Shown piece after piece: positions 2,423-21,541 of a DNA stretch of 21,541 bases. The notes beneath the pieces were generated by a model. The model ran no database searches and was not told where the DNA came from. It saw only the letters and a list, made by a program, of their open reading frames with translations. The position numbers and the translations under genes were made by a program. Origin of the DNA: a virus. Where the stretch lies: IMG/VR virus record IMGVR_UViG_3300031226_000009, positions 1-21,541 of that record, one strand, 5' to 3'. Each line of letters opens with the position of its first letter. The stretch's first letter is position 1.

Positions 2423-3109
2423 TCAGGCTGCTGCCAGTCGATAGAGCTGGCGGCCTGCTTTCTTGCGCGCACGGCGTTTGCCCCATGCGTAGATCGCACC
2501 GAAGCCAGCGATGACACCGGGTAGACCGGCACCAACAGCCGGGACCGGCACTGGCGCAAGCGCCATGTCGATGCCGCCGTTGAAGCGTCCAGTGCCCACC
2601 GAGTTGATGGTGTAGCGCACCATCGCATCATAGGGGTCGGTCAGCAGCGCATTCATCGTCTCGAACGCACTGTCCGATGTGGCGGTGAACACGCCAGTAT
2701 CAGACAGCAGATTGCCGTTGATGAACGTCTGCTCTTGCGCGTTCCAGCCGCCCGTCAGCCCGGTCACGCTGAACGCCGAGAGGACGCCTTGCGTGGTGCC
2801 AGTGCCGATCAGGCCGTTGGCCGTGACGTTGATGACCAACTGGTGCGTCCCGCCAGCACTCTGGTTTACGTCCAGCGTGTTGGTTGAAAAGATGTCAGGA
2901 AAGGCCAGAAACGACTGAGCATTGATCGTCAACGAGTTGAGGTTGAACACAGAGCCGAAAGCCTGATTGGAAACATCCAACGTGCCATCGGCGCTGCTAG
3001 CAGATGCAACCTGAATGCCATCGACGAAGGCAGTCAGGCTGATTGTTTCCGCTGCTGCCGGAAGCGAGAATGCTCCGACCATAACGGCAGCAAGTAGTAG
3101 TTTCTTCAT
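2423..3109 (-). CDS. Exported protein with PEP-CTERM-like sorting tail (first of two)
   Basis: The 228-residue protein has a Sec signal peptide (MKKLLLAAVMVGAFSLPAAA, cleavage after about residue 20), a beta-rich, Ser/Thr/Asn/Gly-rich body and a tripartite C-terminus: a VPVPAVGAGLPG motif, a hydrophobic helix and a basic cluster KRRARKK. That layout matches the PEP-CTERM/exosortase sorting class, in a VPxP-GAGLPG variant I associate with alphaproteobacteria. After the basic cluster there is an unusual extra tail (AGRQLYRLAAA). The start has a strong CAAGGAGG site. It lies directly downstream of a second gene of the same type (3181-3864). In a phage these proteins would be expected at the host envelope or in exopolysaccharide. 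No exosortase gene is in the window. Confidence 0.75.
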   Translation of the reverse strand: MKKLLLAAVMVGAFSLPAAAETISLTAFVDGIQVASASSADGTLDVSNQAFGSVFNLNSLTINAQSFLAFPDIFSTNTLDVNQSAGGTHQLVINVTANGLIGTGTTQGVLSAFSVTGLTGGWNAQEQTFINGNLLSDTGVFTATSDSAFETMNALLTDPYDAMVRYTINSVGTGRFNGGIDMALAPVPVPAVGAGLPGVIAGFGAIYAWGKRRARKKAGRQLYRLAAA

Positions 3110-3180: not shown

Positions 3181-3864
3181 TTACGCCGCTGCCTTTGAGA
3201 TAGGCAGGTCGAGGCCGAGTCTTTTCTTTCGACGCCTCATTAGTGCCCACAGACCGGCCAGACCGCTGATGAACAACGGACCAGAACCGGCAATGGGTGT
3301 CGGCACCGCGAACGGTGTCGGCACTAAGTCGCCTGTCAACCCAACAGGACCGGTACAACCACCAGTGCAGTCAGTCAGCAGAGCGTCTGCCGCCGCAATG
3401 ATGTTCATATCATTGAACTGCGTGGTGGCGAAAAGGAAGCCACTGAAGTTGTCGATAGTGAACGACAATGTGCTTCCGCATCCGCCAGACGATCCACCGT
3501 TGCCGCAGTCAGCCGAAATGCCGTCTGAGAAGAATTTGAACGGGCCGTTCGAGTAACTGGCGGGGCTGGTGTGCGTCAGCACCTGAATGTTGGTACCTTG
3601 GGCGAGGTCAATTGACGTTGCGTCGATGAACCCTGATCCAGCCAGACTCAAGTTGAACAGGAAGTGTGAGCCTGTCTGAAGTAAGATGTTGGGGTCCATG
3701 TTGACGTTAACGCCAACCTGATCGCACGAGGCATCCAAGCAGGATGCTGACGCTGTACCAAAGTTGCCAGTTCCCGCAAAATCGCTTTGCGTGAAGGTGG
3801 CAGCTTTCGCTGGAGCCGCAGCCAGTAGGGCTACGGACGCCAGTAACAGTAGTTTCTTCTTCAT
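3181..3864 (-). CDS. Exported protein with PEP-CTERM-like sorting tail (second of two)
   Basis: The 227-residue protein has the same architecture as its downstream neighbour: signal peptide MKKKLLLLASVALLAAAPAKA, a secreted beta-type body with several Cys (SCLDASCD, DCGNGG, DCTGGCTG) that could form disulfides, and a C-terminal VPTPIAGSGPLF motif, hydrophobic helix and RRRKKR cluster, followed by a short tail ending KAAA. The bodies are not obviously alike, so the two genes share sorting signals more than sequence. The gene is preceded by the GACATAGGAG ribosome-binding box used by several other genes here, which argues that it belongs to this phage and is not a flanking host gene. Its function is unknown; modification of the host surface is a reasonable guess. 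Confidence 0.75.
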   Translation of the reverse strand: MKKKLLLLASVALLAAAPAKAATFTQSDFAGTGNFGTASASCLDASCDQVGVNVNMDPNILLQTGSHFLFNLSLAGSGFIDATSIDLAQGTNIQVLTHTSPASYSNGPFKFFSDGISADCGNGGSSGGCGSTLSFTIDNFSGFLFATTQFNDMNIIAAADALLTDCTGGCTGPVGLTGDLVPTPFAVPTPIAGSGPLFISGLAGLWALMRRRKKRLGLDLPISKAAA

Positions 3865-5368: not shown

Positions 5369-6787
5369 CTAGTCAAGCCGGAACTTACGGACTTCACGGA
5401 TCAGCGCATCCATTCCTGCCGCCATCGTCTTCTTCTTGGTTAGAATATCAACGTTTATCTGATCGATGGGTGAAGCGATTGGCCAATAAAGATAGCAAGT
5501 TTCATCCTGTTCGCCACGATGGTTACGGTCATTCATCTGCGACACGTGCATCAGTGACAGCGACGTTTCATAAAAGTATATTCTATGGCAACGGTCATTG
5601 CCCTTCTTGCCCAGCAGCGTGTGACCCCGGCTGGTCTGGTCGATCTGGCCGACCAGTACGCGGCAGGAACTGTCATCATTGAAGCGCCGCTTCTGCTCGA
5701 TCAGGTCGTCCTTTTTCATACCGCCGGTGATCCACGCTGGCTTGTAGCCTTCCTTTTCGAACTGCTCGATTAGCATGCGTCCGCTTGGATCAAAAAAGTA
5801 GACGACAATTAGTTTACCGTGCCCGGTCGCCATCAGGTCAAGCGCTGCCTTCAGCTTCGGATTGTGTTTCGGCTCTTCCAGCCAGAACGCGCGCCCGTCC
5901 TTCATCAGCAGGCACGACGAAATCTGCTGCAGCTTGATGCGCTGGGTCAGTACCATGTCGGCGCTCACTTCCTCTTCGCCTATCAATGCATAGAACTCCT
6001 GCATCATCGTTGCGTAGTGCTGGTGCTGCTTATCGGTCATTTCGAGGTGGACCGGCACCTCGAGCTGTTCTGGCATATCCTTGCGCCAGTCGCGTTTGAG
6101 CGCCCGAAATGAGCAGCCGTCGAGCATGCGCGCCAGTTCTTCCTTGCGGTCCTCGTTCATGCCGATGACTTGCCGGCCCATGAACCCACCCATCTTGGCG
6201 TAACGATTGCGAAATGCAAACGCATTCATGCCGTTGATCTGGCCGAGCATCTTTAAAGGCGCAAAATAATCCAACACGTTCTGGACCAATGGTGTACCAT
6301 TGTTTAGTCGCACGTACTTTGCATCCTTAACCAGCTGGCCGACACAATACTTAGCCAGTAATGACGTGTGGTTCTTGATACCGGTAGACTCATCAAACGT
6401 TAACATACAACGGCGCTGTCTGAACAGTTCGAGCAGAGCGAGCCGGGCGCGCTCGCTGCCACGCAATGTTTCGTGTGCGATACCATAGACGCCGCACTCC
6501 CAGTTGTAGGGTAGCGGGTCATGTCCCCACATCCCGGTCTGCATAAAACCAAGTCCCCACTCTGCTGGTGCCAGTGTCCAGTCAGCAACGAAGCTACTTG
6601 GTGCCAACACGATATTGAGGTCCACATCACTGAATGAAACGAATTCATTTAAATTAGTTGCAGTTTTGCCAAGTCCTTGCTCAGAATGATTACCGAAACG
6701 CTCGCGTCCGCCGGCAGCTTTTAAATAAGCAGCCTGTACCGGCCAAGGGGTTCGACCCCAAAGTTCATGTTTAAGATGCCATTGCAT
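5369..6787 (-). CDS. SNF2-type superfamily 2 helicase/translocase
   Basis: The 472-residue protein shows SF2/SNF2 motifs in order: Walker A (EQGLGKT, Lys about residue 41), motif Ia (VLAPSSFVADW), motif II (LTFDESTGIKN, DES in place of DEAH, residues about 132-134), motif III-like (LNNGTPLVQN) and, in the second RecA lobe, motif V-like (VLVGQIDQTSRGHTL) and motif VI (SQMNDRNHRGEQ). Such single-core SNF2 proteins are common in phages and act as dsDNA translocases in replication or recombination. I chose ATG 6787 because conserved-looking sequence begins there; a TTG at 6817 extends the frame. Neither has a clear ribosome-binding site. The 5' end overlaps the last 17 bases of the AT-rich HNH gene, so expression probably relies on coupling. 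Confidence 0.85.
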   Translation of the reverse strand: MQWHLKHELWGRTPWPVQAAYLKAAGGRERFGNHSEQGLGKTATNLNEFVSFSDVDLNIVLAPSSFVADWTLAPAEWGLGFMQTGMWGHDPLPYNWECGVYGIAHETLRGSERARLALLELFRQRRCMLTFDESTGIKNHTSLLAKYCVGQLVKDAKYVRLNNGTPLVQNVLDYFAPLKMLGQINGMNAFAFRNRYAKMGGFMGRQVIGMNEDRKEELARMLDGCSFRALKRDWRKDMPEQLEVPVHLEMTDKQHQHYATMMQEFYALIGEEEVSADMVLTQRIKLQQISSCLLMKDGRAFWLEEPKHNPKLKAALDLMATGHGKLIVVYFFDPSGRMLIEQFEKEGYKPAWITGGMKKDDLIEQKRRFNDDSSCRVLVGQIDQTSRGHTLLGKKGNDRCHRIYFYETSLSLMHVSQMNDRNHRGEQDETCYLYWPIASPIDQINVDILTKKKTMAAGMDALIREVRKFRLD

Positions 6788-7211
6788 GAGGGCAGCTACC
6801 AAGCCAGTGTATAGCAAAATTGCAGTTAAAGCATAGAACGCGAAAATCTCTTCTGACCTCTTTAACCCCTTTCGCTGCGATTTCCCGTGCTAGCCAAGCA
6901 TATGTGCGACTTTGACCGCCAATTAAGCGGCGGTGCGTACTGCCTTTGCCATTCTTGTGATCAACACATAAAAAGATCAATTCCTTTTCACCGCAGCCGC
7001 GACACGCACACCTGCCTCCTAACTGTGCAATTAGTTTTGCTTTAAGTCGTCCGTATCGATTGCGTCTATTTATTAAGTGTTTGGTCGGATTTTTTGTTTG
7101 CCAGTGCCTAGTGTAATTAGCTACGCATTTAACACATTGACGAGTACTAGTATAGCGAAAAGCAGTGTGACCATGTTTACACTTTCTACCGGTGTAATAT
7201 TTCGGTGTCAT
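6771..7211 (-). CDS. HNH homing-type endonuclease, AT-rich insertion
   Basis: The 146-residue protein starts with a zinc-knuckle-like segment (YYTGRKCKHGHTAFRYTSTRQCVKC) and continues with an HNH core: CACRGCG, VDHKNGKG (His of the active site), then LCFNCNFAIHW. This layout fits free-standing phage HNH endonucleases that spread by cutting unoccupied alleles. The gene is clearly richer in A+T than its neighbours, a sign of separate origin. It is wedged between a DUF7694-like gene (ATGA overlap at 7208-7211) and the helicase, with its last codons overlapping the helicase start. The same N-terminal motif recurs in the HNH protein at 18233-18871. Confidence 0.83.
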   Translation of the reverse strand: MTPKYYTGRKCKHGHTAFRYTSTRQCVKCVANYTRHWQTKNPTKHLINRRNRYGRLKAKLIAQLGGRCACRGCGEKELIFLCVDHKNGKGSTHRRLIGGQSRTYAWLAREIAAKGVKEVRRDFRVLCFNCNFAIHWLGSCPHAMAS

Positions 7212-7564
7212 GCGATCGCCTTTGCCGGCGGGCGCGGAATTTCCTGATGATGCGGTCGCCAGATGTGCAGCGTGTACTGGTGAAAATTGATGTGGTCGGC
7301 CGGCGGCACGTGCAGCTGCATCGCCGTTTCGTGATCCTGAAAGAACTTGCGCTTGATGAAGTCCATTTCCGGCCAGTTCGGGCAGCGACTGCTGCGGCTG
7401 ACCGAGACGTGATCCCAGCCGTCATCGCTTGAGGCGATACAGCGCAGCGGTTGACCATCAACCGGCGACGGAAAGGCAAAGGCGCCACAGTTGCCGTCAC
7501 CATCCCAGCCATAGACCGCGCTGGCATTAAGCCGGTGCGCATTGAGTTGGTTCAAATCTCTCAT
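7208..7564 (-). CDS. DUF7694-like phage protein
   Basis: The 118-residue protein contains DGWDHVSVSRSSRCPNWPEMDFIKRKFFQDHETAMQLHVPP...HINFHQYTLHIWRP, which I recognise as the pattern of the DUF7694 family: W..M...K..FF..DE.A.Q.H.P...IN.H...LHLWRP. Members are found in phages and their function is unknown. Spaced His, Cys and Trp suggest a compact metal- or nucleotide-binding fold, but this is not shown. The ATG overlaps the preceding TGA, with AAGGG upstream. It is part of the coupled chain that begins at the polymerase gene. Confidence 0.78.
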   Translation of the reverse strand: MRDLNQLNAHRLNASAVYGWDGDGNCGAFAFPSPVDGQPLRCIASSDDGWDHVSVSRSSRCPNWPEMDFIKRKFFQDHETAMQLHVPPADHINFHQYTLHIWRPHHQEIPRPPAKAIA

Positions 7565-7755
7565 CCGTGCCCTTTTAATCGTTCAATTTCACGTTCAAGG
7601 AAAAGGACTTTTTTACGCAGTTCAGTTTCGATAGTTATTCCTTGGTTTGCTAGCATCTGCCACTTTTCCGTATCTGCTTCCTTTTTCTTTAAATCCTTGA
7701 TGCGTTCCCACAATCGTTTGTTTTCTGCTGTGAGTATCTCCATTGTTATCGTCAT
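7561..7755 (-). CDS. Small coiled-coil protein
   Basis: The 64-residue protein is almost entirely predicted coiled coil (LTAENKRLWERIKDLKKKEADTEKWQML ... ELRKKVLFLEREIERLKGHG). Start and stop both overlap neighbours through ATGA, and an alternative ATG exists at 7743. No catalytic motif is visible; an adaptor or oligomerisation role is likely. Its last codons form the repeated junction GGGCACGGATGA that also ends the gene before it. Confidence 0.65.
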   Translation of the reverse strand: MTITMEILTAENKRLWERIKDLKKKEADTEKWQMLANQGITIETELRKKVLFLEREIERLKGHG

Positions 7756-8036: not shown

Positions 8037-8157
8037 ATTCGTACCTTGTGATGACGACGTGATCGCGCAGGATACGATCAACTGCGGCCTCAATCTCCGA
8101 GTCCGGCGCGTCAACGATCTCTTCCGAGATTAGCCTGATTAACTCGTCTCTGGTCAT
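8017..8157 (-). CDS. 46-residue protein downstream of the DatZ-like gene
   Basis: A short frame encodes MTRDELIRLISEEIV followed by DAPDSEIEAAVDRIL and ends EYDQINN. Its ATG overlaps the TGA of the HD-hydrolase gene (ATGA) with GGAG just upstream, and its 3' end overlaps the next gene by 20 bases. The composition is that of a small, acidic, two-helix protein. The coding case is good despite its size, because it precisely fills the gap and is coupled on both sides. No function can be given. Confidence 0.65.
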   Translation of the reverse strand: MTRDELIRLISEEIVDAPDSEIEAAVDRILRDHVVITRYEYDQINN

Positions 8158-8774
8158 ACTCCGTGTCCTCCCGTATCTTCGTGCGCTTTAATAGCAGGGA
8201 GCATTACTGTGTGCCACAGTTCCTGCAGCACTTCGGCGCCGGCCGGCAGCTCGAGCCACGCCGAATAGCAGCGGTTCTGCGCATCGATGATGCGCGGCTC
8301 GATCACAGCATTACCCATGCGGCGCTCGCCGGTCAGGAATAGTACCGCATCGAGCCGGTCCGCAGCCTTGATGATGCGCCAGCATTCGTCAACCATCTTC
8401 TCTTTCGCCGGGTTGCCGTCACAGTTGGTGATCGACTGGATTTCCGACATAATGTCGGGCAGCCGCTCTTTCATTTTCAGTTCGATGTAATCGGCGGCAC
8501 GCTCGCTGTCTAGGATTTCGGCCTTGACCGGGCTCACAACGTCACCGGTGATTGTCTCATCAAGATCGTGCGTCAACGCCAGAAACAACAACGCACCCCA
8601 GTTGCCGGGCCAATCGAGTAGCTGCGCGATCTTGCGCGAATAGATAGTTACATAATAGCTGTGATTGGCAACGGTGTCACGCGTCAGCGTCCAGACGATT
8701 GACCACCTAGGTACGATTGATGCCGTACGCAGTTCAGGTGGAAAAAGTAGCTGGGCGCGGCTTTGCTTGTTCAT
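8154..8774 (-). CDS. datZ: HD-domain dNTP phosphohydrolase, DatZ-like (dATP removal)
   Basis: The 206-residue protein has the HD-superfamily metal site of YfbR/DatZ enzymes: H38 in VANHSYYV, H69-D70 in LALTHDLDETITGDVVSPVK, and D139 in WRIIKAADRLDAVLFLTGE. The N-terminal VPRWSIVWTLTRDTVANHS is typical of the YfbR-like group. In Z-genome phages DatZ specifically dephosphorylates dATP to deoxyadenosine, which purges adenine from the dNTP pool. The assignment as DatZ, rather than a general 5'-nucleotidase, rests on its place three genes after PurZ and next to the MazZ-like gene. AGGAAAG precedes the ATG, which overlaps the MazZ-like gene by 41 bases. Substrate specificity cannot be read from the sequence alone. 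Confidence 0.85.
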   Translation of the reverse strand: MNKQSRAQLLFPPELRTASIVPRWSIVWTLTRDTVANHSYYVTIYSRKIAQLLDWPGNWGALLFLALTHDLDETITGDVVSPVKAEILDSERAADYIELKMKERLPDIMSEIQSITNCDGNPAKEKMVDECWRIIKAADRLDAVLFLTGERRMGNAVIEPRIIDAQNRCYSAWLELPAGAEVLQELWHTVMLPAIKAHEDTGGHGV

Positions 8775-9156
8775 GTCGGTTTCTTTCCTGATCGATCATC
8801 CCCAGCCGGTCCCATACGATAAGTGCAAAATTAGCAACATCGACGCATTCGCGGCGTGCGTCCTTCACTGCTAGAAATTCGTCCGCCACTTTGAACTCTT
8901 CCAGCTCGAGGATCAGCAGCCGCACCAATGCCTCAATTGGTAGGTCGCGCCAGCTGGTCTTGTGATCGTTGCGACGCAGCTTCATTTCCATCGCTTCAGT
9001 AAACTTGGTCAGTGCCTCGCGCCGCTGCACCTCATCATCGGCGCGGTAGCCGTCGCAGACTAGCAGGTCCAGAGTTTCAACTTCTTGCAGCGATGCCATA
9101 AAGCGATCGCGCTTGCCGTCCTGAATAGTAAACGTAACGTGTACTTGTTCGGTCAT
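8734..9156 (-). CDS. mazZ: MazG-fold nucleotide pyrophosphohydrolase, MazZ-like
   Basis: The 140-residue protein contains the all-alpha NTP-PPase metal site: E84/E87 in LILELEEFKVAD and E103xxD106 in RRECVDVANFALIVWDRLG, matching the EExxE...ExxD pattern. The preceding KLRRNDHKTSWRDL is typical of the phage MazZ-type group. MazZ of Z-genome phages hydrolyses dGTP (and GTP) to the monophosphate, supplying dGMP, the substrate of PurZ. The gene lies one small gene downstream of purZ and overlaps datZ, as expected for a joint pathway. The first ~55 residues are an N-terminal extension before the MazG core. Only a weak ribosome-binding site precedes the ATG, whose first bases overlap the end of the 69-residue gene. 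Confidence 0.83.
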   Translation of the reverse strand: MTEQVHVTFTIQDGKRDRFMASLQEVETLDLLVCDGYRADDEVQRREALTKFTEAMEMKLRRNDHKTSWRDLPIEALVRLLILELEEFKVADEFLAVKDARRECVDVANFALIVWDRLGMIDQERNRHEQAKPRPATFST

Positions 9157-9362
9157 GTTTCTGTCTCGTACGGATTTTTGAGTTGAGGTTGAACCGGTTG
9201 CCCTCTATCTGCCATTGCTTTACTGATAACTCGTTGCGCCTCATCTTGAACGATCTTCCACGCCTTGGCCGCGACTTCCTGCTCGTCATAGAAAAAGTCG
9301 TCGCGGCTGCGCACATACAGCACGACAGCCAGTGCCTCTGCCAGTGTTATCGGTGTCGTCAT
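9153..9362 (-). CDS. 69-residue protein between purZ and mazZ, unknown
   Basis: The protein (MTTPITLAEALAVVLYVRSRDDFFYDEQEVAAKAWKIV...) is predicted to be mostly helical and weakly acidic. Both ends overlap neighbours by the ATGA arrangement, so it is translated as part of the purZ-mazZ-datZ chain. It shows no catalytic motif that I recognise. Its placement inside the nucleotide-modification cluster makes it a candidate accessory subunit or regulator, but this is inferred from position only. Confidence 0.65.
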   Translation of the reverse strand: MTTPITLAEALAVVLYVRSRDDFFYDEQEVAAKAWKIVQDEAQRVISKAMADRGQPVQPQLKNPYETET

Positions 9363-10471
9363 AGGTCCATTTCTAATTGTTCGATGACAGTCTTGAGTTG
9401 TTCTTCGCTACGTACGTCAGCGGTGGTCGGCCCGTTTTCGAGGACGATTTCAGGCCGCGCAATGCCAAGCCGGTCAGCGCGCACCTTGATAAAACCGATG
9501 ATCGCTACCAGTTCTGACTGCTCGCGTATGTAATTGCAGAACGAAATAAACACCACGTCAGGGCGCACGCGGTTCATGGCGTCGGCCAGCTGATTGAATG
9601 AAAAAGTGAAGATGCGGCGCACGCGCTTGGTCACGGTGGTGATTTCGGCCGGCTGGCCGAGCGTCTCCCAGTCAGTCTCCTGCTGGTCCGGATAGCAGTC
9701 GCCCGACTGTCCCAGCTGTTTGCCGTCCTGCACGATGGCGCCCACACGGATCGGATAACAACGAATGACCAGCATTGACTTGCCGTAGAAATGCGGATGG
9801 ATGCCGGCGTCGTTCATTGCCTGCTCGAGCGTGCAGTCGCGTGACGTGCAGTATGGATAGAAATGACCATTGAGGCTAAGCGACAGACCTTGTGGCACTT
9901 CAACGCATACCGATTTGCCGCTACGCATCTCCTGATTGAGATTGATTAGTCGTGTATGCGGACGTAGTATCGGATCGTCACGCGCGATCTGGCCAGAGCG
10001 CAACACCTTGCGCGAAATCGCCTCACCTACTCCCTTGCGCGTTGATGCGATCTTGGTCTGGGCGCTGTCGGCGCGGCCTTCAGCTTCCTTGCACTCCTTG
10101 GTAATGACGGCGGCATTCGGGTGAATGAAGAAGCGGGTCAGATCGACCTCGTAGTCGAACAGCTCGTTGCGCAAGGTTTCGACGTCAATGGCGCAGCCAG
10201 CGTTGAGATAGATGATCGGCTTTTTGTTCAGGTCCTGTGCCTGAATGAGGGCAACGGTCGGTAAATGAAAGGCGACACGTTTCACTCCGTTATGAATGGA
10301 AGTGTGGCCGGCCTGTGCGCTGGCGTTGGTTGTACATATATCAAAGCCCTGTCCATGCTCGAGCGCCAGCTGACAGGCGAGCGACGCAGCAGCGGCGCCT
10401 TTAGCCTCGCTGCCGTATTGACCGCCGATGAGAAAGCTGGCTTTGCCGGGTAGCAAGAAGTTGTCATACAT
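9359..10471 (-). CDS. purZ: PurZ: adenylosuccinate-synthetase homologue for 2-aminoadenine synthesis
   Basis: The 370-residue protein aligns with PurA throughout: P-loop-like IGGQYGSEAKG (residues 15-25), AGHTSIHNG with the conserved His, STRKGVGEAI, VEVPQGLSLSL, FYPYCTSRDCTL, CYPIRVG and a C-terminal TTVTKRVRRIFTF. PurA has GDEGKG with a catalytic Asp; here it is Ser21 (GSEAKG), the change that marks PurZ, which joins Asp to dGMP to give N6-succino-2-amino-dAMP, later cleaved by host PurB. It is much shorter than bacterial PurA (about 430), as phage PurZ proteins are. The ATG at 10471 is chosen because GGAGG lies nine bases upstream; an ATG at 10480 abuts that site. It overlaps the DUF6378-like gene upstream. 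Confidence 0.93.
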   Translation of the reverse strand: MYDNFLLPGKASFLIGGQYGSEAKGAAAASLACQLALEHGQGFDICTTNASAQAGHTSIHNGVKRVAFHLPTVALIQAQDLNKKPIIYLNAGCAIDVETLRNELFDYEVDLTRFFIHPNAAVITKECKEAEGRADSAQTKIASTRKGVGEAISRKVLRSGQIARDDPILRPHTRLINLNQEMRSGKSVCVEVPQGLSLSLNGHFYPYCTSRDCTLEQAMNDAGIHPHFYGKSMLVIRCYPIRVGAIVQDGKQLGQSGDCYPDQQETDWETLGQPAEITTVTKRVRRIFTFSFNQLADAMNRVRPDVVFISFCNYIREQSELVAIIGFIKVRADRLGIARPEIVLENGPTTADVRSEEQLKTVIEQLEMDL

Positions 10472-10739
10472 CGCAGGCATCCTCCGCCAGTTTGCTGTAG
10501 CCTTGCAAGTCGTGGAAATGTTCTTTAAAATGCGGATCAGCGCCGGCGCTTAGAATGCGCGCCAGCTTTAGTGCTATTTCATCCAGTGCTAGTTGCTGTG
10601 CTGGGTTAAGTGCCTGCCAGTTGCCAGTCGAGCGAAATAGCTCACGCATCTGCATTGCGATACGTCCGTTTTCTGCGAACGTGCCGTGCGTGCTGCTGCG
10701 CTGCTTGAACGTGATGGTCAGATCGTTTGCTTCTGGCAT
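10464..10739 (-). CDS. DUF6378-like phage protein
   Basis: The 91-residue protein reads RSSTHGTFAENGRIAMQMRELF...NWQALNPAQQLALDEIALKLARILSAGADPHFKEHFHDLQGYSKLAED. This is the recognisable pattern of DUF6378 proteins (YGdFxenaria..lK....W..L...Q..ALe.Ia.KiaRI..Gdp...D.w.DiaGYa.La). Family members are frequent in phages beside nucleotide-metabolism genes, and their HxDxxGY tail resembles all-alpha dNTPase-type helices; the reaction is unknown to me. GAAGG is well placed before the ATG. It directly precedes purZ with overlap, so it is probably co-translated with it. Confidence 0.78.
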   Translation of the reverse strand: MPEANDLTITFKQRSSTHGTFAENGRIAMQMRELFRSTGNWQALNPAQQLALDEIALKLARILSAGADPHFKEHFHDLQGYSKLAEDACDV

Positions 10740-10930
10740 TTTGCCTTCTCGTCCCTGATGAAATCTCTCATGTGCTTGCCCGAGACTGCCCAGTCATCAA
10801 GCAGGCCCTGCATTACTTTGCCGACCTCGAGCGGGTCAGCCTGCTTAGTCCATTTCAGGCGTCCCATCTCGACCAGCAATGCGGTCAGCTCTTCATTGGC
10901 TGGGATCAGGCACAGGCGTTTGTACGTCAT
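10718..10930 (-). CDS. Small helical protein (MTYKRLCLIPANEELTALL)
   Basis: The 70-residue protein begins MTYKRLCLIPANEELTALLVEMGRL and ends in a Lys-rich tail. The ATG at 10930 overlaps the TGA of the nuclease gene (ATGA) and is preferred over a frame extension to 10948. The 3' end overlaps the DUF6378-like gene by 22 bases. No family is recognised. It is part of the coupled polymerase-to-purZ segment. Confidence 0.65.
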   Translation of the reverse strand: MTYKRLCLIPANEELTALLVEMGRLKWTKQADPLEVGKVMQGLLDDWAVSGKHMRDFIRDEKAKCQKQTI

Positions 10931-11394
10931 TTTTGTTGCTCGTCCCACTCTGCGAAAAAGGTCTGCAATAATATCAGAATGTGGTGCGGGCGCTGATCCG
11001 CTTTGCCAAGGAAAGTATGACCTTGGCGCGTCAGTGTGAATGGCTTGATAGTCGAGTCACTGTAGGCGATCGTCTCCCATGTCGAAATGTTGAGCCACAG
11101 CGACAGCCCCGAGCCGGTGCCGGTCTGTAGAAACGAGGCGACGCCGCACGGCATGCCGGCTGCGTTGAACTGGCGCAGAAATTTCTGTTGCGGATGCGTC
11201 ACGTCGAGTAGGAAGCGTCCGTCACTGGACGGCCAGTCGCGCTGTTTGACTTCGAGGAAACCGGCCGGCCATTTCGGTAGCTTGACCAGCAAGTCAGATA
11301 CTCCAATCAGAAAGCGATTGTTCATCTTATGCGCGCGTCCGCCGGCATCATTGGCGGCTTCTATGATCATTGATTGTAAAGTCAGCTCATCCAT
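10927..11394 (-). CDS. PD-(D/E)XK (VRR-NUC-like) nuclease
   Basis: The 155-residue protein carries the signature of a VRR-NUC/Holliday-resolvase-like nuclease: GVSDLLV with the metal-binding Asp (about residue 34), GFLEVKQRDW with the ExK pair (E48, K50), and HPQQKFLRQFNAAGMPCGVASFL, the Q-containing helix and strand typical of the family. Such small phage nucleases resolve or trim branched DNA during replication and recombination. The start at 11394 sits one base after the stop of the preceding small gene; a longer GTG-started frame (11463) overlaps that gene and is not credited. Location next to the polymerase supports a replication role. Confidence 0.78.
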   Translation of the reverse strand: MDELTLQSMIIEAANDAGGRAHKMNNRFLIGVSDLLVKLPKWPAGFLEVKQRDWPSSDGRFLLDVTHPQQKFLRQFNAAGMPCGVASFLQTGTGSGLSLWLNISTWETIAYSDSTIKPFTLTRQGHTFLGKADQRPHHILILLQTFFAEWDEQQK

Positions 11395-11395
11395 G

Positions 11396-11608
11396 TCATG
11401 GCCTGTGCGGGCAGCCAAGCTGGCGGCAACCCCAGTTAGGAATGGCGTAGACTCCGCGTGCACACGCTTCGCAAACGCCGATGAGCAGGAACGAACTTGA
11501 CGCTAGCACTCGCGTCTTTTGCTTATTGGCTTCCAATTGAGCAGCCAGACTGGTCTTGTCGCGATTTTCCCTGTCGGCGCGGTCGCGCTGGTCGTCATAG
11601 TGTCCCAT
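11396..11608 (-). CDS. 70-residue protein coupled to the polymerase gene, possible zinc site
   Basis: The ATG overlaps the polymerase TGA (TGATG), and the stop lies one base before the nuclease ATG, so the gene fills the space exactly. The protein has a charged N-terminus (MGHYDDQRDRADRENRDKTS), a hydrophobic stretch (VLASSSFLLIGVC) and a Cys/His-containing end (CEAC...CRQLGCPH) that could bind zinc. No known family is recognised. The tight fit is the main evidence that it is coding. Confidence 0.6.
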   Translation of the reverse strand: MGHYDDQRDRADRENRDKTSLAAQLEANKQKTRVLASSSFLLIGVCEACARGVYAIPNWGCRQLGCPHRP

Positions 11609-13566
11609 CAGTCCTCGCCATACGTTGCCAGTGCCCAGTTCTTGCCTTCACCATCATCGACTTTAACCGGCAGGTCGAGTTTGATGCGTGCCTGCTCGCT
11701 GCTGAAATCCGCCATGATGCGCCGGCACTCATCATACACCGGGCGCGCGTTCTCGTCAAATTGGAATGAGATCGAGTCGTGGCAGTTGAGCAGCATTTCG
11801 ACTGGCGCTTTCGCGTCGAACAGATAATCGCTGATTGCCAGCATTTTTTCCTTGATTATGTCCGCATTGCCGCACTGGAGCAGCCGGTTCATCGCAGTAT
11901 AGTCTTTGTTCTGATACTGCAGGTGGGCGCGGCGCCCGAGCAGCGACACTACGTATCCGCGCCGGCGAAAGACGGCGGCGGCTTTGTTCTGGAACGGGCG
12001 CAGTTCAGGCAATACGCGATGATATTCCTTAATCATGGCATCGGCTTCGCTTGCCGGCACCTTGTACTTGGTGACGATGGCGTTCTTGCCGCCACCGGTC
12101 AGTACCGTCTGGTTGACGCGCTTGCCGAAATTATTGCGATGGTGGCGCTGTTCGGCCGGCGTCAATTTGTCCCAGTGTTTGCCGACCGTGAGTAGCATCG
12201 CCTGCGAAACGGCGGTGTGGGCGTCGGCGTCGGGATTGGTGCGGTAGTCGTTGAGAAACACTTTGGAGCGCGTGTAGAACGCCATCAGGCGCGGCTCGAT
12301 CTGGCTGAAATCGCATTCGCCCCACAGGTCGAAATCGGGCACGAATACTGAGCGGTACAGTTTGCCCAGTTCTTCGTCATGCTTCGGCACTTGCTGCAAA
12401 TTGGGGTCGGTCGATGACAGGCGCCCGGTGACGGTGCCGTAGTCGTCGTTCTTCAATTGATTGAAAGTAGTATGGACGCGGCCTTTCCACAGGTGTTTAT
12501 CCTGCAGCGGAATGCAGAACGATGCTTTTAGGTTCTCCCACTTGCGCAGGCGGATGATTTTCTGGCCGGCTTCGTGCTTCTCCAGATAATCAGAAGTGAA
12601 AGATGGCGAACCTTCAGGCCGGCTTGGGCTTGGCGCCGTACGTGGATGCTTGAGATGGCCATGATCCTCCATCCATTTCTGCACGTCAATCGGCGAGCGG
12701 GCATTGAAATCTGACGGGAACGCGTTCTTCAACTGTTCAACGCCGGTGTCAATGTGACCAATCAACCAGTCGAGCCGTTCCTCGTCCACCTTAATACCAC
12801 GTATCATCATGCGCGTCAGAACGGGAATGATGCGGCTCTCAATATCGTGTACGCGCTCGAGGCTCTCGATTTCAGTCTTGCCATCAATATCAATGCCGGG
12901 CTTAAGTATTTGCTTCATCTGCGCATCGCGCAGCTGCCAAGTCGTGATGCCGTCGCCGCAGGCGTAGCTCACCGCCGTCTTGTCGTCGCCGGCGAGGCGC
13001 CAGTAATGGCCCATCGCTTCCTTGTCGGCCTTGATTTCGGGGAACGTCTGGCGCAGGTAGCTGATGATTTCGACGATCTTCTTGGTTTGCACTTTGTGAC
13101 GGATGGCGCAGTCCTCGAGCGAGTACTTGCCCATGTACTCGTTAAGCAGCGGCTCGTTGATGCTGGTGTCTTCGACGCGCGGCTGAAAGGTGAACCCGAC
13201 ACGCGACAGAAAGCGCAGATCGAAAGTCACCCGGTGGCCGAATATCAACGTGTCGGGCTGGTCGATTGCCTTGATCAGCTCCTTTTCACCCGGCGCCAGC
13301 TTGCCGTCCCAGTCTTCAGGGTCGTGGCAGCCATGGCGCCAGCCGACATTGGCGTTGTCGGCGTGGCGAAATGGCACGTAGTAAGAGTCGGCGTCACGCG
13401 GACCGAAACAGAGAACGTAACCAACAATGCAGTGCTTGCGCCAGTCAAGGCCAGTCGTCTCCACGTCAACGCAACGCACTTTTTCATGCGGCAGGCGATT
13501 GAGTACCTGTTGCAGCACCTCGTCGGCTACGTTTGCCCTCAGCTTCTTCTTGCTACGTGCTAGCAT
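11608..13566 (-). CDS. dpoZ: Family A DNA polymerase with 3'-5' exonuclease, DpoZ-like
   Basis: The 652-residue protein lacks a 5' nuclease domain. Proofreading motifs: ExoI CVDVETTGLD (D34, E36), ExoII GHRVTFDLRFL (D116), ExoIII SYACGDGITTW (Y201, D205). Polymerase motifs: TVTGRLSSTDPNLQQVP, motif A ECDFSQIEPRLMAF (D419), O-helix region NNFGKRVNQTVLTGGG (K482), GRRAHL, motif C LLNCHDSISF (D597). In Z-genome phages such an enzyme (DpoZ) copies DNA with dZTP, and this one shares an operon with purZ, mazZ and datZ. At the positions of E. coli Pol I F762 and Y766 there appear to be Gln and Thr, and HDE is HDS. ATG 13566 has AAAGGAG; longer frames are discarded. Confidence 0.88.
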   Translation of the reverse strand: MLARSKKKLRANVADEVLQQVLNRLPHEKVRCVDVETTGLDWRKHCIVGYVLCFGPRDADSYYVPFRHADNANVGWRHGCHDPEDWDGKLAPGEKELIKAIDQPDTLIFGHRVTFDLRFLSRVGFTFQPRVEDTSINEPLLNEYMGKYSLEDCAIRHKVQTKKIVEIISYLRQTFPEIKADKEAMGHYWRLAGDDKTAVSYACGDGITTWQLRDAQMKQILKPGIDIDGKTEIESLERVHDIESRIIPVLTRMMIRGIKVDEERLDWLIGHIDTGVEQLKNAFPSDFNARSPIDVQKWMEDHGHLKHPRTAPSPSRPEGSPSFTSDYLEKHEAGQKIIRLRKWENLKASFCIPLQDKHLWKGRVHTTFNQLKNDDYGTVTGRLSSTDPNLQQVPKHDEELGKLYRSVFVPDFDLWGECDFSQIEPRLMAFYTRSKVFLNDYRTNPDADAHTAVSQAMLLTVGKHWDKLTPAEQRHHRNNFGKRVNQTVLTGGGKNAIVTKYKVPASEADAMIKEYHRVLPELRPFQNKAAAVFRRRGYVVSLLGRRAHLQYQNKDYTAMNRLLQCGNADIIKEKMLAISDYLFDAKAPVEMLLNCHDSISFQFDENARPVYDECRRIMADFSSEQARIKLDLPVKVDDGEGKNWALATYGED

Positions 13567-14427: not shown

Positions 14428-15444
14428 CTAGAAACGTTGATTGCCTGCTGTTTCCCCTTGTCCCGGCTCACCAGTTGCCGTATCGCCGGCAGCAGCGTCA
14501 TCCTCTTCTGATTGCAGACCTTCAATGTCCTTGATCGCTAGTCCACGTGCCGAGAAAGTTTCGTACATCGCGCGATACTGCAAGTACTGGGCCTCGTCCT
14601 CGATCAGCCCGGCACCGTGCACGTCGATGTTAAAGAAACTCTGGCCGCGATTGTTGCTGTCTTCCGTAGCGCGGAACTCCCACACCGTACCGAAAATCGG
14701 CGCACGTACCGTCTTCAGTTTGGTGTTGAACCGGCGCCCGATTTTGATGCTCGAGCGCTGGAATGACAACACTGCCGGCATCAGGTCCGGCTCGTCCGGG
14801 AATGCCAGCAGAAAGTTGTACATTTCAGTCGCGGCTGGCGGCGAGTTGGGATCGTTCGGATTGAGCGTACCCCACACGTTAAGGCCGCTCTCCTGCACCG
14901 TTTTCGCCAGTGTCCAAGTCACAGTCTCTCCGCCATCCTTCTTGTCGAGCTGTACGGTAAACGAACCTTGTGACGGCGACCAGTGCATGCCATCGTCAGC
15001 ACGTGCGAGGATGCCACCGCCGGCGTCACGCGGGCGCCACAGGATATAGCGCTTGTCCATGAACACCGGCACCGCACGAAATGGAGCATCGAAGATGAAC
15101 TCAGACGCCGGGTGAAAAAAGTTGCCAGCCCTGAGGCCCTCGTACTCCTGCAGTTCAGGCGACAGGCCCTGCATCAGCTTGAGGCGCGGGATTTCAATGT
15201 CTTCCTTGCCGATGTTCTCTTTGCCAAGGTCAGCGTCCGAGCGCATAAACTTCGGCAACGTCTGGACGGCGGCAGACGGCACTGGTGCCGGCTGGTGACG
15301 CACCGGCTGCGTCGTCGGACGCGGAGCAGGTCGGCGTTCCTCCGCCGGCGCGGCGCGTCCCTGATGTGCGGCAGCTTGCGCAGCTTTGGACGCAGGCGCG
15401 GCGGTCTTCTTCGCTGGTGTCTTTTTTGCAACGGCTTTTGCCAT
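14428..15444 (-). CDS. Phage early protein of unknown function (possibly ssDNA-binding)
   Basis: The 338-residue protein has a Lys/Ala/Pro-rich, disordered N-terminus (first ~60 residues, MAKAVAKKTPAKKTAAP...), then a globular part with IEIPRLKLMQGLSPELQEYEGLRAGNFFHP, VPVFMDKRYILWRPRD and LSFQRSSIKIGRRFN, and an acidic, Gly-rich end. I recall the IPRLKLMQ...LWR pattern from conserved phage early proteins that sit near polymerase genes, some labelled ssDNA-binding, but I cannot confirm the function. An ACAGGAG site precedes the ATG. Position upstream of the polymerase group supports a replication role. The basic-start/acidic-end layout suits a nucleic-acid-binding protein with an autoregulated tail; this is inference. 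Confidence 0.72.
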   Translation of the reverse strand: MAKAVAKKTPAKKTAAPASKAAQAAAHQGRAAPAEERRPAPRPTTQPVRHQPAPVPSAAVQTLPKFMRSDADLGKENIGKEDIEIPRLKLMQGLSPELQEYEGLRAGNFFHPASEFIFDAPFRAVPVFMDKRYILWRPRDAGGGILARADDGMHWSPSQGSFTVQLDKKDGGETVTWTLAKTVQESGLNVWGTLNPNDPNSPPAATEMYNFLLAFPDEPDLMPAVLSFQRSSIKIGRRFNTKLKTVRAPIFGTVWEFRATEDSNNRGQSFFNIDVHGAGLIEDEAQYLQYRAMYETFSARGLAIKDIEGLQSEEDDAAAGDTATGEPGQGETAGNQRF

Positions 15445-20051: not shown

Positions 20052-20984
20052 TTATCCTCGCGTCGTGTGCCAGACCAGTTCACCGGCGCGCGTGTCGATG
20101 GTAAACGGCGCGATGCCATTAATGATCGGAAAGCCAAGCAACGGTGAGCCATCCGTCACTACTGCTTCAACATTACGGATGACGTGACTGCCGATGCGCA
20201 GCTCGCGGATACGGATTGCTTTCTGTTTGCTTTTGCTACCGTCAGCCAGCGTGACCATGATATCTTCAATCTGGATGGCATTGCTGTTTCTGATCAGCAT
20301 GCTGGCGAAACTGGGCGGCACCTGTGCACCCATGGCGCCAGTATCGATCAGCATGCGGATCGGCATTCCGCCGAGCAGCACGTCTACGTGAATTGACATA
20401 CCACCAGCGGACACGATGATCGGCACGCTATCCTTGCTGCTGGGACGACTGGCAGTCGATGCCGGCGGTTGCTGGGTCGGTGCCGGTTCCGGTGGTGTTT
20501 GTGCCGGCGGCTGTGCGTAAGGTTGCGTATCCAGCTGGGCAGTCGGCGTCGGCAGTTGCTTGCGCACCGTGCAGCGTGAATACGACTGCATTACCAGTGC
20601 ATTGCCACGCTTGCTGTCATACATCCATTCATGGTAGAACATTTCGTTCGTCGTCTTGTTCTGCTTGACTTCACCAATCATGAATAACCACGGCTGGCGC
20701 AGTAAATTGCCGCGCCATTGCGTTTTACGATCAGTAGCAGACGCGTCAGTCATGCCGTACTGGGCCTGACGCGATACGATGGCGCCAGAACGCAGCTGAT
20801 GAAATACGCGCCAGCTGTGGTCGTCCCATGAATGTTCGACTGCGGTAGCAACAACCGGGTTGGGATCATTGGTATCGGCGCCGAACAACATCTGCGGTGC
20901 TTCGCACTGCAGTTGGACGCTCATGGCGTGCGCACTGCCGGCAAACGCTAGCAATGTAGCCGCTGTCGGGAGGAACTTGTTCAT
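20052..20984 (-). CDS. Secreted retropepsin-like aspartic protease with N-terminal extra domain
   Basis: The 310-residue protein has a Sec signal peptide (MNKFLPTAATLLAFAGSAHA), an N-terminal domain with conserved Trp/Tyr/Cys (SWRVFHQLRSG, WMYDSKRGNALVMQSYSRC), a Pro/Gln linker (about 145-185) and a C-terminal retropepsin-like half domain: VDVLLGGMPIRMLIDTGAMG with catalytic D214-T-G, LADGSKSKQKAI and SPLLGFPIING. One DTG per chain means it must dimerise, as in retroviral and bacterial clan AA proteases. ATG 20984 overlaps the upstream TGA (ATGA) with AGGTGG upstream; a 45-residue extension is in-frame but not supported. It likely acts in the periplasm on envelope or virion proteins. A phage gene of this kind is unusual. 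Confidence 0.8.
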   Translation of the reverse strand: MNKFLPTAATLLAFAGSAHAMSVQLQCEAPQMLFGADTNDPNPVVATAVEHSWDDHSWRVFHQLRSGAIVSRQAQYGMTDASATDRKTQWRGNLLRQPWLFMIGEVKQNKTTNEMFYHEWMYDSKRGNALVMQSYSRCTVRKQLPTPTAQLDTQPYAQPPAQTPPEPAPTQQPPASTASRPSSKDSVPIIVSAGGMSIHVDVLLGGMPIRMLIDTGAMGAQVPPSFASMLIRNSNAIQIEDIMVTLADGSKSKQKAIRIRELRIGSHVIRNVEAVVTDGSPLLGFPIINGIAPFTIDTRAGELVWHTTRG

Positions 20985-21541
20985 GCGCCACCTGTCGGGG
21001 TCGGCAGCTTGCTGGGCTGGGTTGGCTGGGTGTCCGGCTGTGCGCCGAACGGCTGGGTGCTGACTTCCGGCTGTCTGCCGTAGGGCTGGGTCGATGGGCC
21101 GGGCAGTCGCTTGGCGCATTCCAGCAACACTGCCTGCATTTCGCGCGAACCAGTCATATCAATGACCCACGTCTTCTCAGTGCCGCCGGGAAACTCAATT
21201 AGCATCTTGTCGGCATGAGCAAAGCCTTCGAAAAACTCGCCCAGTTCTTCCGGCCCGATGCGAACTTTTAGTTCGCCAAGCGCAAAGCCCTTGCCGCGCA
21301 GCATGGTACCAATGGCCTCAGCCGTACCAGCCTGCTCCTTGTCGAACCAGACATTCACAGTGGCTTTTGTTCCTTCCGGAATTTGCCAGCCATCCTTGAA
21401 TATGTCGATGGTCAGGTTCTTGCTACCACCGAACAGCTTGAGGTAGACCACTTGCGTAGCGGGATTGCCGGTGCGCAGACCGCATACCGGCACGTTGCCG
21501 GTCGTGTTTTCCTGTGCGGTCAGATAGTAGGCGGTCCATGA
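20981..21541 (-). CDS. Exported-type protein of unknown function, 5' end outside window
   Basis: The frame runs to the right window edge without a start; the first visible residues are SWTAYYLTAQENTTGNVPVCGLRTG. The body (LYLKLFGGSKNLTIDIFKDGWQIPEGTKATVNVWFDKEQAG and FPGGTEKTWVIDMTGSREMQAVLLECAKRL) has a pattern I associate with secreted alphaproteobacterial proteins of unknown function. The C-terminus is a Pro/Gln tail with TQPYGRQP/TQPFGAQP repeats like the linker of the protease downstream. Its TGA overlaps the protease ATG, so the two are co-translated and may form a pair. No signal peptide can be seen because the start is missing. Confidence 0.68.
   Translation of the reverse strand, partial: SWTAYYLTAQENTTGNVPVCGLRTGNPATQVVYLKLFGGSKNLTIDIFKDGWQIPEGTKATVNVWFDKEQAGTAEAIGTMLRGKGFALGELKVRIGPEELGEFFEGFAHADKMLIEFPGGTEKTWVIDMTGSREMQAVLLECAKRLPGPSTQPYGRQPEVSTQPFGAQPDTQPTQPSKLPTPTGGA

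Follow-up and report, generated by a model that had tools for sequence, protein, structure and literature searches.

Does the phage represented by IMG/VR record IMGVR_UViG_3300031226_000009 build its genome with 2-aminoadenine (Z) in place of adenine, and, if it does, what kind of DNA polymerase copies such a genome? The question is raised by a cluster of minus-strand genes in this record, a tailed-phage genome fragment from an uncultivated virus that was analysed over its whole length of 21,541 bases (the window). An earlier note on the same DNA had read four of these genes, encoding a family A polymerase, PurZ, a MazG-like hydrolase, and an HD phosphohydrolase, as a complete Z pathway. All four are minus-strand genes located inside the span that it had given (Table 1), and the motifs that it named are present: the serine-containing PurZ loop GGQYGSEAKG, the H...HD...D pattern of DatZ, the ExxE...ExxD pattern of the MazG-like protein, and the exonuclease residues of the polymerase. 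It is very likely that the phage carries Z instead of adenine, because PurZ, DatZ, and MazZ (the last in its MazZ-2 variant) are genuine members of their families by residues, trees, and synteny; a diaminopurine genome thus stays the best reading of the sequence evidence. The polymerase, in contrast, is not an established DpoZ, so that the claim of four established components holds for three of them. It is of a type not described before and found so far only beside Z genes. Taken as a whole, the explanation that we favor, and consider probable, is a Z-DNA phage cassette joined to a third-lineage polymerase with a small residue at the O-helix tyrosine and intact proofreading.

The PurZ protein matches NF038379 (1.5e-62), PHROG 1211 (2e-57), and the phiVC8 PurZ structure 6fm1 (1e-41). 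Its Ser24 occupies the position of Asp13 in PurA, the loop in E. coli reading GTQWGDEGKG. The residues of the dGMP/(d)ATP pocket of S-2L PurZ are kept at Y203, C204, T205, R240, V241, T273, R280, F306, G335, and P336, and Asn stands at S-2L Q308, as it does in phiVC8 (N297); changes relative to S-2L are found at G25 (Ala), N305 (Ser), and G130 (Ala). In a tree of 89 sequences, the window protein falls in a 71-row PurZ clade together with phiVC8, S-2L, and SH-Ab (Shimodaira-Hasegawa-like approximate likelihood ratio test, SH-aLRT, 98), on a sub-branch made up almost exclusively of uncultivated viruses. By residues, tree, and synteny, this is a genuine PurZ, with synthesis of N6-succino-2-amino-dAMP (dSMP) as its predicted reaction. 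PurZ0 (Arthrobacter Wayne type) likewise has Ser at the D13 position and the loop GSEAKG, while the studied PurZ proteins have GSTGKG and the nearest relatives of the window protein GSEAKG or GSEGKG. Assignment to PurZ0 on the strength of this loop is ruled out by the tree, in which PurZ0 lies outside the PurZ clade; PurZ0 pairs with DutZ, DmtZ, DUF5664, and a Wayne-type DpoZ (PMC12884076). Many genomes of bacteria and archaea (Pseudomonas, Xanthomonas, Bradyrhizobium, Nanoarchaeota; L109-L188) also encode synthetases that resemble PurZ and carry Ser in place of Asp13; their loop is mostly GSEGKG, and they fall outside the phage PurZ clade.

DatZ matches PF12917 (2.3e-18) and PHROG 7076, "dATP triphosphohydrolase" (1.8e-16), and is identical to the S-2L enzyme at 13 of 14 tested positions. 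In the numbering and with the roles established for S-2L DatZ (PMC8065100), the metal ligands H34, H66, D67, E70, and D119 are kept, as are the phosphate contacts R19, K81, and K116 and the residues W20, I22, and P79 that exclude ribose and 2-amino purines. On a tree with few outgroups, the protein belongs to a 60-row DatZ group (SH-aLRT 87), separate from YfbR and from two nucleotidases of non-Z phages. Residues, tree, and synteny therefore identify a genuine DatZ, predicted to act as a dATP triphosphohydrolase. The MazG-like protein gave zero matches in Pfam, PHROG, or NCBIfam searches; it aligns with the proteins located between purZ and datZ in ZP6, phiVC8, and Ochrobactrum phage vB_OspP_OH (Wolominvirus OH, NC_070933; hereafter OH). 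E84, E87, E103, and D106 of its motif, together with N109, are invariant in 40 sequences, and its structural model (predicted local distance difference test, pLDDT, 84) resembles the MazG-like proteins 2p06 and 2yxh (Thermotoga MazG), with weak Foldseek E-values. It belongs to the published variant MazZ-2 (PMC8342488), and specificity for dGTP is predicted.

By homology to the enzymes of S-2L, phiVC8, and SH-Ab, and following the published chemistry of the pathway (PMC8342488; PMC12884076), MazZ-2 would convert dGTP to dGMP, PurZ would join dGMP to aspartate to give dSMP, host PurB and host nucleotide kinases would carry dSMP by way of dZMP to dZTP, DatZ would remove dATP, and the phage family A polymerase would copy the genome with dZTP; we infer that this polymerase tolerates or prefers Z. 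It could be argued that adenine is replaced only in part, or by a derivative of the succino intermediate, since PurZ homologues are diverse, chemical analysis exists for few phages, and heterologous S-2L clusters in E. coli replace adenine partially (PMC8342488). However, both DatZ and MazZ-2 are intact, and in S-2L and phiVC8-like phages it is this set that is found together with Z-DNA; we consider anything short of complete Z-DNA improbable. Still more improbable is a nucleotide-salvage set that replaces no base, although the OH genome paper annotated the homologues as adenylosuccinate synthase, pyrophosphatase, and 5'-nucleotidase (PMC7139368): the synthetase has Ser where PurA has Asp13, which together with the residues of its dGMP pocket points to PurZ rather than PurA, and DatZ retains the residues that exclude 2-amino purines.

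What, then, is the polymerase? It matches PF00476 (6.7e-53) and the DpoZ model NF038380 (3.8e-78), the latter with 263 bits against a cut-off of 500 bits. The exonuclease residues D355, E357, D424, Y497, and D501 are present and the polymerase catalytic residues are intact as well; if DpoZ is taken loosely, as any PurZ-linked polymerase of family A that can proofread, the protein counts as one. The signatures of the phiVC8 type, namely Phe at helix O (phiVC8 F459), insertion 3, L455, and G548 (PMC8599892), are absent, the window having Thr at F459, no insertion 3, Gln at L455, and Asn at G548. In E. coli numbering, Gln486 of its O-helix falls at F762 and Thr490 at Y766, a Tyr that is nearly universal in helix O. 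When the helix-O columns were removed, the polymerase tree placed it in a 67-row clade with support of 100, outside both DpoZ clades, in a comparison that lacked phiJL001, which the literature names as having the closest non-Z polymerase. Failed signatures and clade placement together rule out a phiVC8-type or Wayne-type DpoZ. The earlier note had held that proteins falling outside the Z clades would count against a Z genome; PurZ and DatZ lie inside, and the polymerase lies outside the known Z clades, yet belongs to a lineage with a tight link to PurZ. Most members of the 67-row clade have Thr, Ser, or Asn at the Y766 position, the same position at which both known DpoZ types carry Phe, the one characteristic change that they have in common (PMC8599892). 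That this position is altered in a third PurZ-linked lineage, here to a small residue, points to selection.

The association with PurZ is seen in residue counts at the Y766 position. In the tree set, in which a few sequences derive from the same or identical contigs, PurZ-linked polymerases have Thr/Ser/Asn in 59 cases, Phe in 22, and Tyr in 5, and those without PurZ have Tyr in 14 of 14. A control scan with ordinary polymerases yielded 80 loci without PurZ (79 Tyr, 1 Phe), bringing the pooled polymerases without PurZ to 93 Tyr, 1 Phe, and zero Thr/Ser/Asn (n = 94). A separate pattern scan, blind to PurZ, searched 2.9 million viral contigs for DNA encoding KRxNQxxxTG and returned 40 matches, 11 in unrelated frames and 29 in a family A polymerase; PurZ was on the contig in 29 of these 29. 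Because the pattern was derived from the window's own polymerase clade (and some contigs also occur in the other locus sets), the scan shows that the clade is PurZ-bound and does not speak to independent origins. Three PurZ-less contigs with a non-Tyr polymerase (L204, L244, and L250) are uninformative, since on the side expected to hold PurZ each contig stops at the polymerase or within 600 bases of it.

On these grounds, it is rather likely that the polymerase represents a third Z-adapted lineage. That it was recruited independently, with the change of Tyr766 to a small residue serving as an alternative route to favoring Z:T over A:T, is put forward as a tentative proposal, to which we give somewhat less credence. 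A competing view is that the polymerase does not discriminate between A and Z, adenine being excluded by DatZ, MazZ-2, and perhaps the DUF6378-like protein encoded upstream of PurZ, as has been proposed for the S-2L PrimPol; Thr766 would then have another cause, for instance strand displacement or the replication of Z-DNA, which is harder to melt. S-2L does make Z-DNA with an unselective polymerase owing to DatZ (PMC8065100), the window's DatZ is intact, some PurZ-linked polymerases of the clade keep Tyr, and the study of phiVC8 DpoZ tied selectivity to no single residue, proposing backtracking and proofreading (PMC8599892). Set against this, the O-helix Tyr is altered in all three PurZ-linked lineages and almost never elsewhere, which suggests selection on base-pair recognition, and an unselective polymerase seems to us unlikely, though less so than either alternative to complete Z-DNA.

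Several points weigh against a Z genome copied by a third Z-adapted polymerase. Tyr is retained in five of the clade's PurZ-linked polymerases (L046, L051, L061, L070, and L228), so that linkage to PurZ does not depend on the small residue. The polymerase tree holds only two well-supported independent contrasts, four in all; with so few independent events, the very low Fisher p-values overstate the association, and a tree-based sign test of residue and PurZ was not significant, there being too few independent pairs. Q29 of DatZ is changed to Asp, in the nearest relatives too; close DatZ proteins have Gln29. The literature searched yielded no chemical measurement for OH or any other phage of the polymerase clade, and the window covers a 21.5-kb fragment of an incomplete genome. 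If the proposal of a third Z-adapted lineage is true, Thr, Ser, or Asn at 766 (with Gln, Met, or Leu at 762) would mark a large radiation of Z-DNA phages with hardly any cultivated members, and the data suggest that most PurZ-phage diversity in environmental samples lies outside the lineages studied to date. This third PurZ-linked lineage bears on how a polymerase comes to prefer 2-aminoadenine over adenine.

Two further observations concern polymerases of other contigs. Those of L226 and L227 are nested in the PurZ-linked clade and keep Tyr766, on contigs (4.7 and 41.8 kb) without PurZ; they are possibly a lineage that lost Z-DNA. The polymerase match in L300 is about 2.9 kb long, and its alignment opens a large gap within the O-helix, a sign that an intein or insert may sit there.

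How unusual is the cassette? The genes of the window are on the minus strand almost throughout, and the order of transcription is polymerase, a 70-residue open reading frame (ORF) of doubtful reality, nuclease-like gene, 76-residue ORF, DUF6378-like gene, PurZ, 69-residue ORF, MazG-like gene, and HD hydrolase gene. The overlapping starts and stops reported earlier run through the cassette (1-68 bases), the sole gap being one of 39 bases after DatZ. The combination had also been called distinctive, a description that did not survive comparison: the same layout is found in OH and dozens of IMG/VR contigs, and because the order polymerase, small genes, PurZ, MazZ-2, DatZ recurs in OH and in most of 80 IMG/VR PurZ loci, the operon is one more example of a kind already known. 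Isolated phages lack direct DNA similarity to the window at the sensitivity of megablast, which gave zero matches against 50,697 phage records; near-identical relatives were found in other metagenomes (L002 and L003; PurZ identity 98%).

The closest known system is OH, which Czernecki et al., 2021 (PMC8342488) counted as a phage with a Z cluster and which is the one isolate found here from the polymerase clade. Like the window, OH has a polymerase, small protein, nuclease, DUF6378-like protein, PurZ, MazZ-2, small protein, DatZ, and SNF2 helicase, and its polymerase has a small residue (Ser) at the Y766 position. Identity, however, is 39% in PurZ and 30% in the polymerase, the PurZ loop of OH is GSTGKG rather than GSEAKG, its residue at the F762 position is Met rather than Gln, and the window belongs to a different subclade, one without an isolate. 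Vibrio phage phiVC8 resembles the window in PurZ (35% identity), a MazZ-2 type hydrolase, DatZ, and a nearby DUF6378-like gene, but its DpoZ, with Phe at Y766, insertion 3, and Gly at N845, belongs to another clade. Cyanophage S-2L has adjacent PurZ, MazG-like hydrolase, and DatZ genes as well, but with MazZ-1 and PrimPol and without a family A polymerase.

Table 1. Features of the Z cassette and its flanks in the window.
Feature	Length (amino acids)	Position	Strand	Evidence
SNF2-family helicase, downstream of DatZ	482	5369..6817	-	PF00176 (6.9e-10), PHROG 62 (3e-66)
DatZ-type HD phosphohydrolase, predicted dATP triphosphohydrolase	206	8154..8774	-	PF12917, PHROG 7076, S-2L residues, DatZ clade
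MazZ-2-type MazG-like nucleotide pyrophosphohydrolase, predicted dGTP to dGMP	140	8734..9156	-	Alignment, invariant residues, fold model
Small ORF between PurZ and MazZ-2	69	9153..9362	-	4-base overlap on each side
PurZ, predicted N6-succino-2-amino-2'-deoxyadenylate synthase	373	9359..10480	-	NF038379, 6fm1, Ser24, PurZ clade
DUF6378-like four-helix protein	91	10464..10739	-	PHROG 16943 (1.9e-17); PF19905 below cut-off (9e-4)
Small ORF	76	10718..10948	-	L002 and L003 only
Nuclease-like protein	178	10927..11463	-	PHROG 93 endonuclease (3e-7)
Family A DNA polymerase with 3'-5' exonuclease	652	11608..13566	-	PF00476, catalytic residues, 67-row clade
Polymerase O-helix motif KRVNQTVLTGGG		12088..12123	-	Ungapped alignment anchored by K758, N761, G767
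Pam3 gp34-like protein, upstream of polymerase		14428..15444	-	PF23977 (3.1e-47)

The DUF6378-like protein is a possible deoxynucleoside triphosphate pyrophosphohydrolase. In most PurZ loci, DUF6378 is the immediate upstream neighbor of PurZ, in a slot that for the most part it and DUF5664 have in common (L030-L108): in the 80 loci, DUF6378 occurs alone in 56, DUF5664 alone in 9, and both in none (Fisher 6e-6). DUF5664 is a measured dATP/dGTP hydrolase. The mutual exclusion of the two may reflect lineage history, and profile comparison of DUF6378 with DUF5664, MazZ, and MazZ-2 found no homology. A Z-specific fifth component was ruled out when DUF6378 turned up in 71 of the 80 PurZ-less control loci, which marks it as a general phage gene. 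Neither Foldseek nor VIA-align found a convincing PDB match for the model of the window protein (pLDDT 91), and its fold gives no function, since the model resembles only uncharacterised or DUF6378 viral proteins. In S-2L (L006, MW334946), a DUF6378-like frame at 7325-7576 (+) lies opposite the annotated gene S2L_16, which may have been annotated on the wrong strand.

Among the remaining genes of the cassette, the 69-residue ORF was found only in L002 and L003 (77% identity), as was the 76-residue ORF (99%), and the nuclease-like protein has relatives at the same position with 38-67% identity (e.g., L189, L190, and L235). Identity to L002 and L003 is 71-73% in the DUF6378-like protein and 88-93% in the helicase, and this mosaic divergence beside a PurZ at 98% suggests recombination within the cassette. 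The SNF2 helicase occupies the same position in OH (31% identity to OH gp36), and the Pam3 gp34-like protein is 37% identical to its OH counterpart and 24-25% identical to those of the Z phages SH-Ab, phiVC8, PMBT28, and BUCT555. An HNH endonuclease-like gene upstream of the helicase (6771-7211, -; PHROG 2255) is missing at the same place in L002 and L003 and, given its absence from relatives this close, is probably a recent insertion; a 64-residue gene at 7561-7755 is missing there too. Two tandem secreted-looking proteins, unusual for a phage, are encoded at 2423-3109 (-) and 3181-3864 (-), with C-terminal tails (VPxP, a hydrophobic stretch, and RRRKK) like PEP-CTERM/VPLPA sorting signals; the second has a weak match to TIGR03370 (0.062). 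Lastly, a phage protein encoded at 20052-21119 (-) has a retropepsin-like clan AA aspartic protease domain (PF13650, 6.9e-12).

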